Source: Bacteriovoracaceae bacterium
Lineage (GTDB): Bacteria; Bdellovibrionota; Bacteriovoracia; Bacteriovoracales; Bacteriovoracaceae
Assembly: GCA_021737405.1 (NCBI GenBank)
Contig: JAIPEG010000004.1
Coordinates: 124,001-188,000, forward strand
Reading direction: 5' to 3'
DNA: 64,000 bases
The translations under genes and the position numbers were made by a program. Shown piece after piece: positions 16,320-24,944 of this stretch. Under the pieces are notes generated by a model. The model was not told the origin of the DNA, searched no databases, and saw nothing but the letters and a program-made list of their open reading frames with translations. Within the stretch, counting starts at the first letter, position 1. The number at the start of each line of letters is the position of its first letter.

Positions 16320-18395
16320 ATGGATGGATTATTTAAAAAATTAAAATTCTTCACTAATAACTCCGACTTAATGGTCGCCATCGGCCTTTTGTTGGTACTT
16401 TCAGTAATGATTGTGCCAATTCCGCCGATGCTTTTAGACCTCTTGCTCGCACTTACTCTATCTTTAAGTATTGTTATTCTTCTAGTTTCTGTTTATACGA
16501 AAAAGCCTTTAGACTTTTCTACCTTTCCTTCAATTCTTTTGGTGATGACGCTTTTTCGTCTTTCCCTAAACGTAGCCTCAACTCGAAATATTCTTCTTCG
16601 AGGTGGTGGGGAAGGAACAGAAGCCGCTGGGGAGATTATCCGGTCTTTCGGTGAATTCGTTGTAGAAGGTAACTACGTAGTTGGTATTATTGTCTTTATC
16701 ATCTTAGTCATTATTAACTTTATGGTTATTACTAAGGGTGCTGGTCGCGTTGCTGAAGTTGCTGCACGATTTACGTTAGATGCTATGCCAGGTAAGCAAA
16801 TGGCCATTGATGCTGATTTAAACGCTGGCTTAATTGATGACACTGAAGCAAAACGACGAAGAAAAGAAGTGGCCGAGGAAGCAGACTTTTATGGTTCTAT
16901 GGATGGTGCTAGTAAGTTCGTAAGAGGGGATGCCATTGCTGGTATCTTGATTACAGTTGTCAATATTATTGGTGGTATCATTGTTGGGGTCGCCCAAAAT
17001 GGTCTTGATATAAGTGAAGCGACAAGAGTCTTCACACTACTTACTGTGGGTGATGGTCTTGTCTCCCAAATTCCTGCACTTATCATCTCTACTGCCGCTG
17101 GTCTTATCGCCACAAGAAACAAAAGTGATGATGCTCTAGGGGCACAAGTTGGTAAACAATTTAAGATTCATCCAAAGGCCATCTATATGGCATCTGGCGT
17201 ACTCTTTACCTTTGCAGCCATCCCAGGACTTCCTAAATTTCCTTTCATCGTAATGGGATTAGTTCTTGTCGGGACTGCTTATAAGATAGAGCAATTCAAT
17301 GATAAGGAAGTAGAGGATGCTAAATTGGCAGATTCTGAGGTTGATAAAGGAAAGCCAGAGCATCTTGAAGACCTTCTTGGGCTTGAGTTGGTTGAATTGG
17401 AAGTAGGCTATGGTCTTGTCAATCTGGTTGACTCTGAACAAAACGGTGACCTTCTAGAGAGAATCACTCATATTCGTAAACAATTTGCTTTGGATTGGGG
17501 GGTCATTATTCCTTCTGTCAGAATTAAAGATAATCTTGAGTTAAAGCCTGGTGGATACAATATTAAGATTAAGGGGATCAAAGTAGCGGAAGGGGATCTT
17601 ATGACTGATCACTTTTTGGCCATGGACCCTGGTGGAATTATAGAACCAATGGATGGCATTGAAACCACGGAGCCTGTTTTTGGTCTACCAGCGGTATGGA
17701 TCAGTGAAGATCAAAGAGAAGATGCCCAATATAATGGTTATACTGTAGTAGATTTATCAACTGTAGTTGCCACTCACTTGACAGAACTACTCAAGTCTAA
17801 TGTACATGAGTTATTTGGCCGCCAAGAATTGGTAAACCTTCTTGATACATTTAAGCAAAATTACCCCAAAATTGTATCAGACTTAATCCCCGAAATTCTT
17901 ACGATGGGTCAAGTCCTGAAAGTTTTACAAAATCTTCTTCGCGAGGGTGTTTCAATCAGAGATCTTCGTACTACTCTTGAGACACTGGCCGAGTATGGTG
18001 CTACAATTAAGGACACGGATAGTCTTACAGAAATGGTAAGGCAGTCCCTATATAGAACAATTACTTTTAGTATTAGCAGCGAGCAGGGAGAAATACCCTT
18101 GTTTACACTCGATAGGGGAATTGAAGAGTCAATCGCTCAGAATATTATTCAGACAGAGCAGGGGCAGCAGGTTTCTCTTGACCCCAAGGTTACTCAATCG
18201 ATCCTTGCGAGCTTAAATGAAAAAATTGAAGAGGCGACTAATATGGGTGAAAAAATGATCGTTTTATGTTCTCCAGTAATTAGAAGTCATTTTAAGAAAC
18301 TAACAGAAAAGTTTATTCCAAACTTAGTTGTTGTGTCACACAATGAACTAAGTCCTGATGCTAATATTAGATCACTAGGAACGGTGAGGTTGTAG
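16320..18395 (+). CDS. flhA: Flagellar export protein FlhA
   Basis: 691 aa. The N-terminal half has eight TM helices with the FHIPEP-region signatures STFPSILLVMTLFRLSLNVA and GRVAEVAARFTLDAMPGKQM. The soluble C-terminal half (from about 340) is the chaperone-docking ring, including PSVRIKDNLELKPGGY. FlhA couples the proton motive force to export. No insertion or truncation is seen. Confidence 0.98.
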   Translation: MDGLFKKLKFFTNNSDLMVAIGLLLVLSVMIVPIPPMLLDLLLALTLSLSIVILLVSVYTKKPLDFSTFPSILLVMTLFRLSLNVASTRNILLRGGGEGTEAAGEIIRSFGEFVVEGNYVVGIIVFIILVIINFMVITKGAGRVAEVAARFTLDAMPGKQMAIDADLNAGLIDDTEAKRRRKEVAEEADFYGSMDGASKFVRGDAIAGILITVVNIIGGIIVGVAQNGLDISEATRVFTLLTVGDGLVSQIPALIISTAAGLIATRNKSDDALGAQVGKQFKIHPKAIYMASGVLFTFAAIPGLPKFPFIVMGLVLVGTAYKIEQFNDKEVEDAKLADSEVDKGKPEHLEDLLGLELVELEVGYGLVNLVDSEQNGDLLERITHIRKQFALDWGVIIPSVRIKDNLELKPGGYNIKIKGIKVAEGDLMTDHFLAMDPGGIIEPMDGIETTEPVFGLPAVWISEDQREDAQYNGYTVVDLSTVVATHLTELLKSNVHELFGRQELVNLLDTFKQNYPKIVSDLIPEILTMGQVLKVLQNLLREGVSIRDLRTTLETLAEYGATIKDTDSLTEMVRQSLYRTITFSISSEQGEIPLFTLDRGIEESIAQNIIQTEQGQQVSLDPKVTQSILASLNEKIEEATNMGEKMIVLCSPVIRSHFKKLTEKFIPNLVVVSHNELSPDANIRSLGTVRL

Positions 18396-18396
18396 T

Positions 18397-19824
18397 ATGT
18401 ATGTGAGAAAATTTGAAGCCGATTCATTGGACGAAGCGCTCAAATCCATTAAAAGAGAACTTGGACCAGATGCCATTATTCTAAAGACGGTAACGAATAA
18501 GGGTCTGAAGGGTGCATTCAAAAAGAAGAGAGTTGAAATCACTGCGGCAATTTCTGAGAAAAACTATAGTAAAAAAGCTAGAGTAGATCAGGTATTTGAT
18601 GATGAAACAAAAGATAAGTTTTATCAAAATGATTCATCATATATCTCCAAAATGATAGACGGACATATGGATAATCAAGGTACTCAGCCCACTAATCGCA
18701 TTGCCTCTAAGGGCTACTCAAGTCTTGGTTTAAACAAGCCCGTTCAGTCTATGAAAGAATTGGGTGGGAAAATGAGAAGTGGTTTAGATGACTTTTTATC
18801 TGGTCCACAAGCAGATGATAGGCAATATTTAAGTCAAACGCCTGAGCAGGTTCAGCTCCCTCGTGAAAAGGTTATAGTTAACGACTCGATTGCTCAACGC
18901 CATAAAGAAGTAGAGGCTAATTTAAACCAAGAAAGAAATGAAAGACATTTTGAACAAGAAAATCAGCAAATTGAAGGTCAAAGAAAAAAGATTGATGAGC
19001 TTGAAAGAAAACTTTATGAGCTAACAAAATCGATAGATAGATTAGATAAGAAAGAGCCTATTGGTCTGTATCAACTTCGAGTAACTTTAAAGAGTTTATC
19101 CATTGCAGATTCTACGATTAATGAAATCCTCAAGAAGGCAAGTTTTGAATTAGATGAAAATGATCAAAAGGATATCGATATTGTCTTTGAATTTGCTCTT
19201 CGTGAAATGCTTGAGAGAGTGCCTACGGCAATGCCAAAGTTCTCTAGCCTAGAAGGTAGTGAGACACCTTGCCTAACGATACTGGTCTCTGATAGCTCAT
19301 GTGGACAAACGTCGATGCTCTATAAACTAGGGGCATTGAAAAAAGATAGCCGTCTAGTTCAATATCAACCTGGCAAAAATAAAACCTTCACGGAATCTAT
19401 CTTTGATTTAAAGATTGATAAAGTGGGCACTATCCCAGAAGTCGTTTCATGTATTCGCAAGGCTCTTGAGAATGGGGAAAATGTAATTGTAGATTACAGA
19501 AATAATAAAACAGAACTAAATGACACGAAGAAATTTATCGATGGGGTCCGTCGTGCTTTTGGCAATGTGGAAGTATTGATCTGCCTTTCAGCGATTCACT
19601 CAGAGATTTATAATAGAAAAGTAACATCAACCTACGAGTCATTGGCCGATGGATTGATTATTACTAACTTAGATTTGTGTTTAAATTATGGCGCATTATT
19701 TAATATTAGTGAGGAGTATCCGAGCCTGCCTTTAAAGTTTTTTGGCACAGGAGAAGTTATTCCCGAAGATATTGAATCGGCGACTGGAGAGAGAATTCTC
19801 GCTGGTATGTTTAAGTTGAATTAA
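18397..19824 (+). CDS. flhF: FlhF, flagellar placement protein with a degenerate GTPase domain
   Basis: 475 aa. The N-terminus matches FlhF (ADSLDEALKSIKRELGPDAIIL), followed by a low-complexity and coiled-coil linker (about 60-220) and an SRP-type NG region. The C-terminal FFGTGEVIPEDIESA is also an FlhF signature. The nucleotide motifs are lost: where GPTGVGKTT is expected there is SDSSCGQTS (about 297-305), the DTAGR motif is replaced by DYRNN, and the TKLD motif reads TNLD. The P-loop lysine is gone, so GTP hydrolysis and probably binding should be absent. FlhF recruits the first basal-body parts to the pole; here it may work as a nucleotide-independent scaffold. Confidence 0.9.
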   Translation: MYVRKFEADSLDEALKSIKRELGPDAIILKTVTNKGLKGAFKKKRVEITAAISEKNYSKKARVDQVFDDETKDKFYQNDSSYISKMIDGHMDNQGTQPTNRIASKGYSSLGLNKPVQSMKELGGKMRSGLDDFLSGPQADDRQYLSQTPEQVQLPREKVIVNDSIAQRHKEVEANLNQERNERHFEQENQQIEGQRKKIDELERKLYELTKSIDRLDKKEPIGLYQLRVTLKSLSIADSTINEILKKASFELDENDQKDIDIVFEFALREMLERVPTAMPKFSSLEGSETPCLTILVSDSSCGQTSMLYKLGALKKDSRLVQYQPGKNKTFTESIFDLKIDKVGTIPEVVSCIRKALENGENVIVDYRNNKTELNDTKKFIDGVRRAFGNVEVLICLSAIHSEIYNRKVTSTYESLADGLIITNLDLCLNYGALFNISEEYPSLPLKFFGTGEVIPEDIESATGERILAGMFKLN

Positions 19825-19872: not shown

Positions 19873-20769
19873 ATGTCACGGAAGACACCTGGGGAATGGT
19901 TACTTTCCCAAAACTCTAGTTTTAGTCGTATTGATGTTAAAAATATTCCAAAAAAATCTTGTAAAACAATAGCCGTATCTAGTGGAAAGGGTGGTGTCGG
20001 TAAGACATCTGTGGCCATTAAATTGGCTAAACTTTTAGTAGAAAAAGGTGAGCGGGTCCTTTTAATCGATTGTGATTACAATCTAAGTAACACAGCTGTT
20101 AAGCTAGGATTTCCACTAGAAGATAAGTTTTACGATTTACTACAAAGTAAAATTGAGTTTGATGAGGCCATCCATAAAGATGGTGATTTCCATCTTCTAA
20201 GTGCTTGCAATGGTAACCTTGATATTTTCGAAAATGACCTAAGTTTAGAGAATCTAATTATTGATATAGTTTCTGTTCATCGTGAAGACTACGACTCTAT
20301 TATCTTAGACTGCCCTGCAGGTTTAACGAGAGAGATCTGTACTCTTAGTAGCTATTGCGATTATCGCTTTGTTGTGATTACTCCGGATAAGTCTTCTATT
20401 ACAGATAGCTATTCGTTGATTAAGGTCCTAAGCCAGAAACTCGGGGTTAGAGAACACCACTTAATTTTCAATAAAATTTCTAATGAAAAACAATATGATC
20501 GCCTTACAAAAACGTTCTTAGAAACAGCGAGTCTTTATCTCGACTGTCGTCTAAATGTGCTTGGTGCGATTCCTTTCTTTAGACAAAATGTCGATCTCTT
20601 TGATCAAGAACTGTTAAAAGTTGCCGATTCAAAGATTCATAACTCTTTTAATAATGTCATTAATAAATTTGCCGAGGAGAACATTGGCAGCAGTGCTATC
20701 TCATTTCCTATTCTTCATAAGGACTTGAGTAGTAGCTTTGCACATAAACAGGATGTTCAATCATTTTAA
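19873..20769 (+). CDS. flhG: FlhG (FleN/YlxH), MinD-like ATPase controlling flagellar number
   Basis: 298 aa, GAGGAG five bases upstream. The deviant Walker A motif SGKGGVGKTS is at 36-45 and DCPAG serves as the second nucleotide motif; both are intact. FlhG normally stimulates FlhF GTPase through a short N-terminal helix with a DQA..LR motif. That motif is not visible in residues 1-30, which read PGEWLLSQNSSF in that place. This fits the degenerate FlhF next door. The C-terminal 45 residues are divergent, without the clear amphipathic membrane helix of MinD. Confidence 0.9.
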   Translation: MSRKTPGEWLLSQNSSFSRIDVKNIPKKSCKTIAVSSGKGGVGKTSVAIKLAKLLVEKGERVLLIDCDYNLSNTAVKLGFPLEDKFYDLLQSKIEFDEAIHKDGDFHLLSACNGNLDIFENDLSLENLIIDIVSVHREDYDSIILDCPAGLTREICTLSSYCDYRFVVITPDKSSITDSYSLIKVLSQKLGVREHHLIFNKISNEKQYDRLTKTFLETASLYLDCRLNVLGAIPFFRQNVDLFDQELLKVADSKIHNSFNNVINKFAEENIGSSAISFPILHKDLSSSFAHKQDVQSF

Positions 20770-21600: not shown

Positions 21601-22515
21601 ATGGAGAACGGTCATTTAAAAGACAATTTTAAGCAGGGTATGGATACTTTAGGCGATCTTTATAGTCTTGGTGATTCAAGTCTATACCCAATCATCGACC
21701 GGCTTCATTTTCACTTAAATGAAATTAACCTCGTTCAAAGAGTCGCCTCAACAGAGCAAGAATTTAGCTCATTGAGGCGGTTATTTAATAAGGAAATTGA
21801 CTATCTGGTAAGCGACTTCTTTCGTGAACAGCCTATTGGTGTAAAAGTAGATATTCTAAATAATTTGGAAAATCCCAACCTAAGAACTTTGGATCGCTTG
21901 GTTGCCACCTTTCCTCTTGCAGGGGATGTTTGTCGTCTCTTTAGCTTTCAGAAAAATGTGTGCATAACAATAACGAATAATAAATTTTCATTTTGTGGTG
22001 ATGTTCCACTAGGCTTAGACTTTGAGGCCTTACGATTAGAAAGTTACCGATTAACTCGGTTATTCCTTGATAAGAATATTCTTTTTACCTTTCAAGTTTT
22101 TGAAACTAATAGTAGTGATACTTTTTCCATTCAATTTGACTTTCATATGGATGGAGACGATTCACCGCTATTAATACATGTCAAAGAAGATACTGTCCTT
22201 TCGTTGTCACCAGTTATGAAGGCTTTTTCACGGCCGTTAGAGGACATTGAAAAGATAGGCGAACACAATATTTTCTTTATAAATGAGGATTATAAAGCAA
22301 CACCCCTAGACCGCTTAAACTTATTAAATTTCATACAAGACCAAAATTATCACCTTTTCCATTTTCCCTTTCTCTTTCGTCCCATATCTTTAATAATAAA
22401 GAGAAGTATTTATGGTGGTACAGGTGCCATAGATTCAGGTAGGTTGAGTAGCTTAAGTGAGGAAAACTCGCTAAAAGTATTACCAATAAACCTATTTGAA
22501 ATTTTTCAAAAATAA
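21601..22515 (+). CDS. Unrecognised protein at the end of the flagellar operon
   Basis: 304 aa, start ATG with AGGATGG just upstream. No signal peptide or TM segment. The first 110 residues look helical (LYPIIDRLHFHLNEINLVQRV, shown here as a fragment), while the rest alternates strands and charged loops, with two cysteines near 117-125 and another in FSFCGD. I recognise no family. It lies 28 bases after fliA and 26 before a large membrane protein, all on one strand, so co-transcription with the flagellar genes is likely and a role in motility or its control is a reasonable inference. Confidence 0.75.
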   Translation: MENGHLKDNFKQGMDTLGDLYSLGDSSLYPIIDRLHFHLNEINLVQRVASTEQEFSSLRRLFNKEIDYLVSDFFREQPIGVKVDILNNLENPNLRTLDRLVATFPLAGDVCRLFSFQKNVCITITNNKFSFCGDVPLGLDFEALRLESYRLTRLFLDKNILFTFQVFETNSSDTFSIQFDFHMDGDDSPLLIHVKEDTVLSLSPVMKAFSRPLEDIEKIGEHNIFFINEDYKATPLDRLNLLNFIQDQNYHLFHFPFLFRPISLIIKRSIYGGTGAIDSGRLSSLSEENSLKVLPINLFEIFQK

Positions 22516-22541: not shown

Positions 22542-24944
22542 ATGTTTCTTAAAGCTAGCCGTGCGCTTCAGGTGTATTACGTAGTCGTCTTAACCCTTAC
22601 AATAAGTACTTTTGGAGTTGGGGTTAAATACTTCTGGGACAATGGTCCATTTGATGTCGAAAATTTGAACTCAGCATTTGAAGCTTCTCTTCACTTTGAT
22701 GAGCTAAAGAATAAGGCAAGCCTTGATTCTGTAAATAGTCTCGTAGAAGAAGACAGAGCAAGAGACGCTATACTACGCCTAAATACAGTAGATAAGAGAA
22801 CGAAGACGCTTCACCATTTTAATAAAGTTGAATCTTATGAAAACTTTAATAGCTCTCTTACTCAAACAAAAAAACATTTAAATGAACTAATCTCCTATCC
22901 ACAAATGGGAAGTGTGATTCTCGTTCTTGCTAATAAAGTAAGTTCATTTGAGAGCTTCGTGGTTCAAAATAATTGGCGAACATTAACGAGAGTTGCCAGT
23001 CGAGTTATGGCACGAATGTCAGGGCGATCCATTCAAACGCCAGGATTCTTTACCCATGAAAAATTAAGCACACTTTTAAGACTTACAGAAAAAGATATCG
23101 AATTAATGAAGAAGGTAACCTTAGGTTCAGTGCTCGCTGAAGGGGATAAGCAAAATATAGTAGGTAAGTTAAAAACCTTAAATACTGAAATCTCCATGCT
23201 TTCTCGCTACTTGAGCGCGTTTGAGAACTTTTCAGGCAGCTTTAGAACACTTAAAACTCGTTATAAAAAGTGGTTTGAAGATGTGGCACCACAGATTACT
23301 TTAACAAAACTTAAAATGGAAAAAGACACTCAAACAATGGCATTCGCTTTATTGGGGATTGGGTGTTTTCTCTTCTTTGCTTTGGTCGGTGGGATATGGT
23401 TTTACCCAAGAGTGAAAAGAAAAGAACAGGAAGAATTAGAATTTAAGATATTAAAAAGAATTCAAGATGGACTGTTTCCAATGGAAAATAAAATAGTCGA
23501 TCAAAATACAAGTGAAGAATTCAAACGTGAATTTGAAAGATGTAGAGAATACTTTCATAAGCGTATTTCTTTTGGAACTGTTTTTCAGGAAGCGGTTCCC
23601 TTTAGTAGTGTTCTTTTAGATTCCAATTTGAATGTAACATGGGCAAATGATCTGTTCTATGAACACTGGAATCTATCGGAGACCCACCGCGAGGGATCTT
23701 CTGTTTCTTGGGACTTTCTTCAACAGTATACAAATCTTGGTGAAGACGACCCAGTTTTAATGGCACATAACCAGGGGATTGCAGGAATTTATCAAATTCA
23801 GGTTAAAGACCCTAAAACAAACGAATGTTTGCCCTATGAGATGTACGTTTCACCAGTTGAATATTCTAAGCAGAAAAGAATCATGATTTTCTTTTATCCT
23901 TTAAGAAGTTTAGAAGAAACAATTGCTAATCAGACCAAGGCGATTGTCGGACCGATTGGACGTACGCTTGATGCCTTTGCCGAGGGTAACTTTAACACTA
24001 AGACTCAAGAAAGGCTTATTAAAGATTACGAAGTCGCTGGTATCGGCGAGTTATATGAAAAGCTAAAAAACTTCTATGATAGTACTGAGCTGGCCAAGTT
24101 TGAATTTCTTGAGGAAATACAAATTCTTGAGAACTCCATCAATGACCAAATGAAACTAGTCGCAGATTTAGAAGCTTTTGGCGAACGTCAGTTGTCACTT
24201 TCTGGTGAATCAAAGATCTATTTTGAAAAAACTAAGTCGGCAATTATTCATAATATCGACCTTCGTTATGAACTAGAGCATCTCTTTAATATGACAATAA
24301 ATATTACTAAGAATTTACTGAAGCAAGAGAGTGATTTAGTAGAATCAAGTAATAGGTCAAAAAGCATAATTGAAGAAAATCAAAAAGCCTTTGTTTCTGT
24401 TAATGCTACTAAAGATGAATTTAAAACGTTAAAGAATTCAATTGATGAACTTAGGGCACGCTTGAATCAATCGCTAGAACAAACCTTACTCTTTATGAAA
24501 AAAGATGGAGTTGATCCAAAGCTGGAGACAAGTATTAGCAAAGTTCGTTTAGAAATGAAGGGTGTTGAGCAGGTTCTTCAAAACTTTAATAAAGTCCTTA
24601 GAAGTCTCGATGTGGGTCTTGGTAAAATGGCATTGATTTCGGAACAGGCCCAGGTTCCTAGTCTCGATAAGGTAATAGAAGGCATAGAGAGAGCTCGTCA
24701 GGATGTGGATAATTCTACGTTTGAGTTTGGGAGAATTTCTCGCTCAGGTGAAAAGACTGATGAACTGGTTGTTGAGTCTTTAAAAGAACTTTATCAAGGA
24801 TTCAGCTTAACGAATGAGTTGAATCAAAATGGTCTTGGTATAATCGAAAGAAATCGTGAAGAAGATGATCTTAAGCAGGTGCTCTTTACAGAGGATCAAA
24901 GCTTGAGTGAAGAAATTAACGATGAAATAAGACCAAGTCTTTAA
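22542..24944 (+). CDS. Large membrane sensor-like protein: periplasmic helical domain, PAS-like and long coiled coil, no output enzyme
   Basis: 800 aa, AGGAAGGAG upstream. TM1 is at about 9-31, a periplasmic helical domain at about 35-262 and TM2 at about 266-289. Inside the cell a PAS-like segment spans about 348-460 (FSSVLLDSNLNVTWANDLF), then a HAMP-like stretch at about 466-515 (GPIGRTLDAFAEGNF), then about 240 residues of heptad-rich coiled coil. The order is that of a chemoreceptor or sensor kinase, but the conserved chemoreceptor hairpin tip, a kinase core and a GGDEF motif are all absent. It may be a polar or flagellar organiser or a receptor signalling through its coiled coil. Its last four bases overlap the end of coaE. 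Confidence 0.8.
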   Translation: MFLKASRALQVYYVVVLTLTISTFGVGVKYFWDNGPFDVENLNSAFEASLHFDELKNKASLDSVNSLVEEDRARDAILRLNTVDKRTKTLHHFNKVESYENFNSSLTQTKKHLNELISYPQMGSVILVLANKVSSFESFVVQNNWRTLTRVASRVMARMSGRSIQTPGFFTHEKLSTLLRLTEKDIELMKKVTLGSVLAEGDKQNIVGKLKTLNTEISMLSRYLSAFENFSGSFRTLKTRYKKWFEDVAPQITLTKLKMEKDTQTMAFALLGIGCFLFFALVGGIWFYPRVKRKEQEELEFKILKRIQDGLFPMENKIVDQNTSEEFKREFERCREYFHKRISFGTVFQEAVPFSSVLLDSNLNVTWANDLFYEHWNLSETHREGSSVSWDFLQQYTNLGEDDPVLMAHNQGIAGIYQIQVKDPKTNECLPYEMYVSPVEYSKQKRIMIFFYPLRSLEETIANQTKAIVGPIGRTLDAFAEGNFNTKTQERLIKDYEVAGIGELYEKLKNFYDSTELAKFEFLEEIQILENSINDQMKLVADLEAFGERQLSLSGESKIYFEKTKSAIIHNIDLRYELEHLFNMTINITKNLLKQESDLVESSNRSKSIIEENQKAFVSVNATKDEFKTLKNSIDELRARLNQSLEQTLLFMKKDGVDPKLETSISKVRLEMKGVEQVLQNFNKVLRSLDVGLGKMALISEQAQVPSLDKVIEGIERARQDVDNSTFEFGRISRSGEKTDELVVESLKELYQGFSLTNELNQNGLGIIERNREEDDLKQVLFTEDQSLSEEINDEIRPSL

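Follow-up and report, generated by a model that had tools for sequence, protein, structure and literature searches.

A probable pseudo-GTPase form of the flagellar positioning protein FlhF in the family Bacteriovoracaceae

FlhF directs the single flagellum to a pole of the cell, as a rule by acting as a GTP-driven switch. In several species, FlhF proteins mutated in the GTP motifs misplace flagella. The need of polar flagellation for GTP binding or hydrolysis by FlhF is unsettled, as GTP-site mutants behave differently from one species to another (PMC12826062, PMC6092412, PMC12713375). In Vibrio, flagellation is abolished by T306A or D439A, diminished but not lost with K305A or K437A, and normal with R334A (PMC6092412). 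In Shewanella, the NG domain binds the polar landmark HubP whether or not GTP is present, and FliG is the partner of the N-terminal domain (PMC11236974). In Pseudomonas, the contact between FlhF and FliG is strengthened by GTP binding (PMC12713375). Canonical FlhF works with the ATPase FlhG, whose N-terminal DQAxxLR helix stimulates FlhF and supplies a co-catalytic Gln (PMC12826062). GTPase-type domains that survive the decay of their motifs are known from the pseudoGTPase domains of p190RhoGAP (PMC5593906) and from degenerate septins (PMC10731463), eukaryotic families unrelated to the bacterial SRP-type (SIMIBI) flagellar FlhF. No report of an FlhF pseudo-GTPase was found among the open-access papers searched.

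The window studied here is a 64,000-nucleotide stretch from a member of the Bacteriovoracaceae, a family of predatory bacteria, and the features of flhF and flhG described below all lie on its + strand. The flhF gene (18397..19824) is an ATG-initiated frame of 475 codons with no internal stops, as originally predicted. Directly 5′ of it lies flhA (16320-18395; TIGR01398, 899.7 bits) and 3′ of it lies flhG (19873..20769; 298 aa), a MinD-type ATPase partner. The genes fliL, fliM, fliN and fliO, among others, lie upstream in the same flagellar gene run, and a gene for a sigma-70-family sigma factor follows flhG. The two ORFs 3′ of the sigma factor gene (21601-22515, 304 aa; 22542-24944, 800 aa) gave no match in a Pfam search and mark the end of the flagellar run. 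The FlhF profile TIGR03499 matches the protein with E=4.6e-16 and 59.7 bits, under its equivalog cut-off of 174.15 bits, a threshold also missed by many other Bdellovibrionota FlhF proteins. The Pfam SRP54 match covers the C-terminal half only. With one profile below its cut-off and the other partial, an annotation pipeline would recognize the protein only as a poor FlhF. A PHROGs search found nothing. The placement between flhA and flhG and the two FlhF end signatures, MYVRKFEADSLDEALKSIKRELGPDAIILKT and GTGEVIPED, bear out the assignment, and the protein is an FlhF orthologue by descent. It shares the flhA-flhF-flhG order and the N-terminal signature with the FlhF proteins of B. subtilis (2px0/2px3) and S. 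putrefaciens (8r9r).

The N-terminal domain (residues 1-55; 18397..18561) is the equivalent of the FliG-interaction domain, or FID (PMC11236974). It contains many columns that are invariant across the family, has a pN of 0.016 and, in the nearest pair, a dN of 0.016, and is modelled as beta-alpha-beta-beta, with a pLDDT of about 90 at residues 1-30 and lower values at 36-41. A variable linker follows (residues 56-195; 18562..18981), with a dN of 0.30 in the nearest pair and a middle part predicted to be disordered (pLDDT <50 at 95-169). The helical N domain (residues 196-290; 18982..19266) is placed by alignment, model and structure search. In the G domain the nucleotide motifs are remnants. 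The P-loop or G1 reads SDSSCGQTS (residues 298-306; 19288..19314), with Gln304 in place of the Lys. The I-box DTYRxAAxEQL, which carries the catalytic Arg, is missing from the region at 19348..19431 on alignment with 2px0 and 47 FlhF proteins from the rest of the phylum. G3, canonically DTAGR, reads DYRNN (residues 366-370; 19492..19506) and G4 reads TNLD (residues 423-426; 19663..19674), having lost the base-recognition Lys. Between G3 and G4 a near-invariant new motif, SAIHSEIYN (residues 398-406; 19588..19614), occupies the place of the canonical LSATxxxxD. The closing-loop signature GTGEVIPED (19744..19770) is retained. The three altered motifs are thus present as the original prediction described them; the I-box deletion, the SAIHSExYN motif and the breadth of these changes across the family go beyond it.

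In a whole-genome search of the class the protein was detected in 119 of 129 genomes, all of one family (44 of 48 genera); among those that gave no match, several are drafts of incomplete genomes. This family is the Bacteriovoracaceae, also labelled Halobacteriovoraceae, and includes Halobacteriovorax and Bacteriovorax. All 95 distinct family sequences carry Gln where the P-loop Lys is expected, and all 47 FlhF proteins from other Bdellovibrionota families carry Lys. An intact GPTGVGKT is found in none of the 95. The second P-loop position (residue 299) is Asp or Glu in 89/95, which is unfavourable for phosphate. The I-box is deleted in the family relative to the FlhF proteins of B. subtilis and of the phylum. 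At G3 the Asp alone is conserved and the rest of DTAGR is gone; at G4 the Lys occurs in 2/95 and the Ser/Thr is mostly kept. SAIHSExYN, absent from canonical FlhF, is found in the family with S in 92, I in 91, H in 83, E in 93, Y in 91 and N in 93 of 95 sequences. With Gln304 and Lys310 invariant, this motif newly arisen and the G domain under strong constraint, the site is not one that has drifted. The closing loop GTGxxxPxD is conserved in the family as it is in canonical FlhF. An acidic residue at 299 and a basic residue at 368 occur together in 86/95 and are both missing in three, a pattern suggestive of a salt bridge that closes off the pocket. The pairing is confounded by descent and is not used as evidence. 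Judged on its P-loop, I-box, G3 and G4, the protein fails as an SRP-type GTPase at every sequence feature of the active site tested, and GTP binding and hydrolysis have probably been lost across the family. The pseudo-GTPase proposed for this one protein is supported by sequence, constraint and predicted fold, but as a property of the whole family.

The NG domain is kept as a fold. An AlphaFold model of the monomer, built on 45 family sequences, has a pLDDT of about 80-95 over most of NG. The top Foldseek matches of this predicted model come from SRP GTPases, among them FlhF with GDP (8r9r; TMt 0.78) and FlhF with GTP (2px3; TMt 0.70), so that the SRP-type NG fold is predicted to be common to canonical and family FlhF. 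Together with the coding constraint described below, this points to a domain that is maintained without most of its GTP contacts. A general decay of SRP GTPases in these genomes was considered and rejected: FtsY of the same genomes is canonical, with GxNGxGKTTTxGK, DTAGR and TKCDG. Replacement by an intact FlhF paralogue was rejected likewise, as none appeared in family-profile or SRP54 searches. In most genomes the family profile matches at a single FlhF locus, further matches being fragments of split loci or weak ones to the C-terminal part, and the SRP54 search of family genomes returns Ffh and FtsY besides FlhF. Ffh was not found in the incomplete draft of the source itself and is found in relatives.

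In a maximum-likelihood tree of FlhF, computed by a quick search with the P-loop columns removed and with two long rows inside the family poorly placed, the family is separated from all other FlhF by a 100%-supported split. Its stem, at 2.75 changes per column, is longer than any other branch. A single change suffices to explain the P-loop character, and on this tree the replacement of Lys by Gln is best read as a single ancient event. G3 and G4 have another history. They are already non-canonical in other Bdellovibrionota families that keep the P-loop Lys, so the G3 and G4 changes partly predate the one in the P-loop. The contention that three motifs are broken stands for all three. In the family f6, for example, G3 (D[YF]xG, as in DYTGL) and G4 (TSLD) are degenerate and FlhG lacks DQAxxLR, points of likeness to the Bacteriovoracaceae. 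Unlike the Bacteriovoracaceae, such families retain GxxGxGK[TS] and the I-box in FlhF and have no Trp-Leu motif in FlhG. The decay therefore looks stepwise, and what is specific to the Bacteriovoracaceae is the change of Lys to Gln, the I-box deletion and SAIHSExYN. Loci L078, L079, L081, L084 and L093 of the family f3 encode a short FlhF (349-382 aa) whose P-loop is intact but whose C-terminus does not resemble GTGxxxPDD, and their FlhG lacks DQAxxLR.

FlhG of the Bacteriovoracaceae shares with FlhG/FleN/YlxH the gene adjacency, the deviant Walker A GKGGVGKT and the D-x-P-A-G switch. In the window the Walker A reads SGKGGVGKTS (19981..20010) and is intact. GKGGVGK is present in 88/88 aligned family copies, in which the ATPase motifs KGGxGKT and DxPxG are conserved. 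The N-terminus differs from the described proteins. DQAxxLR is found in none of the 89 family genes. In its place stands a conserved Trp-Leu motif, WLLS in the window (residues 9-12; 19897..19908), which follows the strict pattern WLx[ST] in 76/89 and small variants of it in ten more; Trp9 is kept in 87/88 aligned copies. Elsewhere in the Bdellovibrionota, DQAxxLR occurs in 8/34 FlhG proteins (counts that ignore kinship), all eight of which are paired with an FlhF carrying DT[TASF]G and [TS]KxD. In most of the 26 pairs without it, G3 or G4 of FlhF is altered. That P-loop loss led directly to loss of the helix was rejected as too simple a view, since many Bdellovibrionota with the P-loop preserved in FlhF also have an FlhG that lacks DQAxxLR.

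These observations are probably best explained by the dismantling of the FlhF GTP site in the family's stem lineage, after which the protein became fixed as a pseudo-GTPase that serves as a nucleotide-independent tether, with the FlhG ATPase as the remaining switch. The conserved N-terminal domain would hold FliG, and hence the FliF/FliG starter ring, and the NG domain would hold the pole or partner proteins. This bridge from pole to flagellar base would no longer open and close with GTP and would act as a constitutive tether. The tether is inferred from the Vibrio mutants, the binding of NG to HubP regardless of GTP and of the N-terminal domain to FliG in Shewanella, and the single polar flagellum of cultured Bacteriovoracaceae (PMC5760749, PMC12642874). 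When the Vibrio positions are assigned by motif, with D470 the less certain assignment, the family retains the equivalents of T306 and D439, whose substitution abolishes flagellation, and has lost those of K305, K437 and R334, the missing I-box Arg being equated on sequence with R334. As FlhG has lost DQAxxLR, gained a Trp-Leu N-terminus and kept a full ATPase, its ATP cycle would remain as the nucleotide switch that governs flagellar number. FlhG would then act on FlhF by binding and not by stimulating hydrolysis. If the tether is right, compensation must exist, because GTP binding matters for the FliG contact in Pseudomonas. On this evidence the Bacteriovoracaceae seem to place their polar flagellum without an FlhF GTP switch. 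A clade of polar monoflagellates that has apparently managed without the GTP site from the beginning amounts to a natural experiment. It reveals the residues that placement truly requires and sets tethering apart from switching. It also leads to the prediction that flagellar number can be controlled by FlhG without any stimulation of FlhF GTPase activity.

The tether may be taken further, more tentatively. FlhF could form a constitutive homodimer, or bind FlhG through a remodelled active-site face that receives the Trp-Leu motif as a structural latch instead of the catalytic DQAxxLR helix, an extension to which we give somewhat less than an even chance. The FlhF changes co-occur with the new N-terminal motif of FlhG, and SAIHSExYN replaces LSATxxxxD between G3 and G4; both traits, however, mark one single clade, so that their association is phylogenetically confounded. 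In its fullest form, a possible but not favoured one, the circuit would be rewired, with FlhF a nucleotide-free tether and FlhG, latched onto the former GTP site, the sole switch; the erosion of G3, G4 and DQAxxLR would have begun earlier in the phylum and been finished in the Bacteriovoracaceae.

A different and unlikely reading is that the site has been re-tooled, the loop S-[DE]-x-x-x-G-Q-[ST] binding a nucleotide, phosphate or other anion in a new way so that FlhF is still a ligand-operated switch. Gln304 and Lys310 are invariant (95/95), Gly303 before the Gln is kept in 94/95, Ser298 in 93/95, the Ser/Thr after the Gln in 92/95, Asp366 in 94/95 and Asp426 in 94/94. Such fixation exceeds the obvious need of a bare scaffold, and the fold is kept. 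With the P-loop Gly and Ser/Thr and both Asp residues retained, weak or unusual nucleotide binding is possible. Against re-tooling stand the acidic residue in the loop and the loss of the I-box, the G4 Lys and the Gly and Arg of G3, after which few of the canonical contacts to phosphate or guanine survive beyond Asp and Ser/Thr. The nucleotide-independent tether is preferred.

That FlhF is relaxed and heading for loss, the gene persisting passively in organisms that no longer need it, is very improbable. The long stem branch would fit, as would an in-frame TAG near flhF codon 21 in L021/L107 (genome G056), which interrupts an otherwise intact frame and is either an error or a young pseudogene in a metagenome assembly. 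Yet in the nearest pair (85% identity; dS is saturated for more distant pairs) the G domain has a dN of 0.014 and a dS of 1.36, a dN/dS of about 0.01. Dozens of residues are invariant across the family, the frame is intact nearly everywhere and the gene stays next to flhA and flhG.

Although the source genome is known from a fragmented draft of 56 contigs that is 84% complete, faulty sequencing or assembly and a mutation private to this genome can be dismissed, as there is no frameshift and the same residues are fixed in 95 distinct sequences, including those of the cultured isolates Bacteriovorax sp. BSW11_IV and DB6_IX, alongside a Halobacteriovorax marinus record.

A few further loci deserve a remark. 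Genome G000 carries, besides a full FliG on contig C20, two short proteins of 148 and 144 aa (L223 and L224; C26:1233-1631 and C24:308363-308764) that resemble the C-terminal part of FliG only. At the FlhF loci L067, L068, L069, L072, L092 and L190 of the families f12 and f15, no FlhG-type ATPase was found in the fetched flanks. At L003 in G000 (C37:31342-34449), two adjoining ORFs of 371 and 288 aa, with the Walker A sequences CGTGGVGKT and TGKGGVGKT, look like an ArsA/Get3-type ATPase pair.
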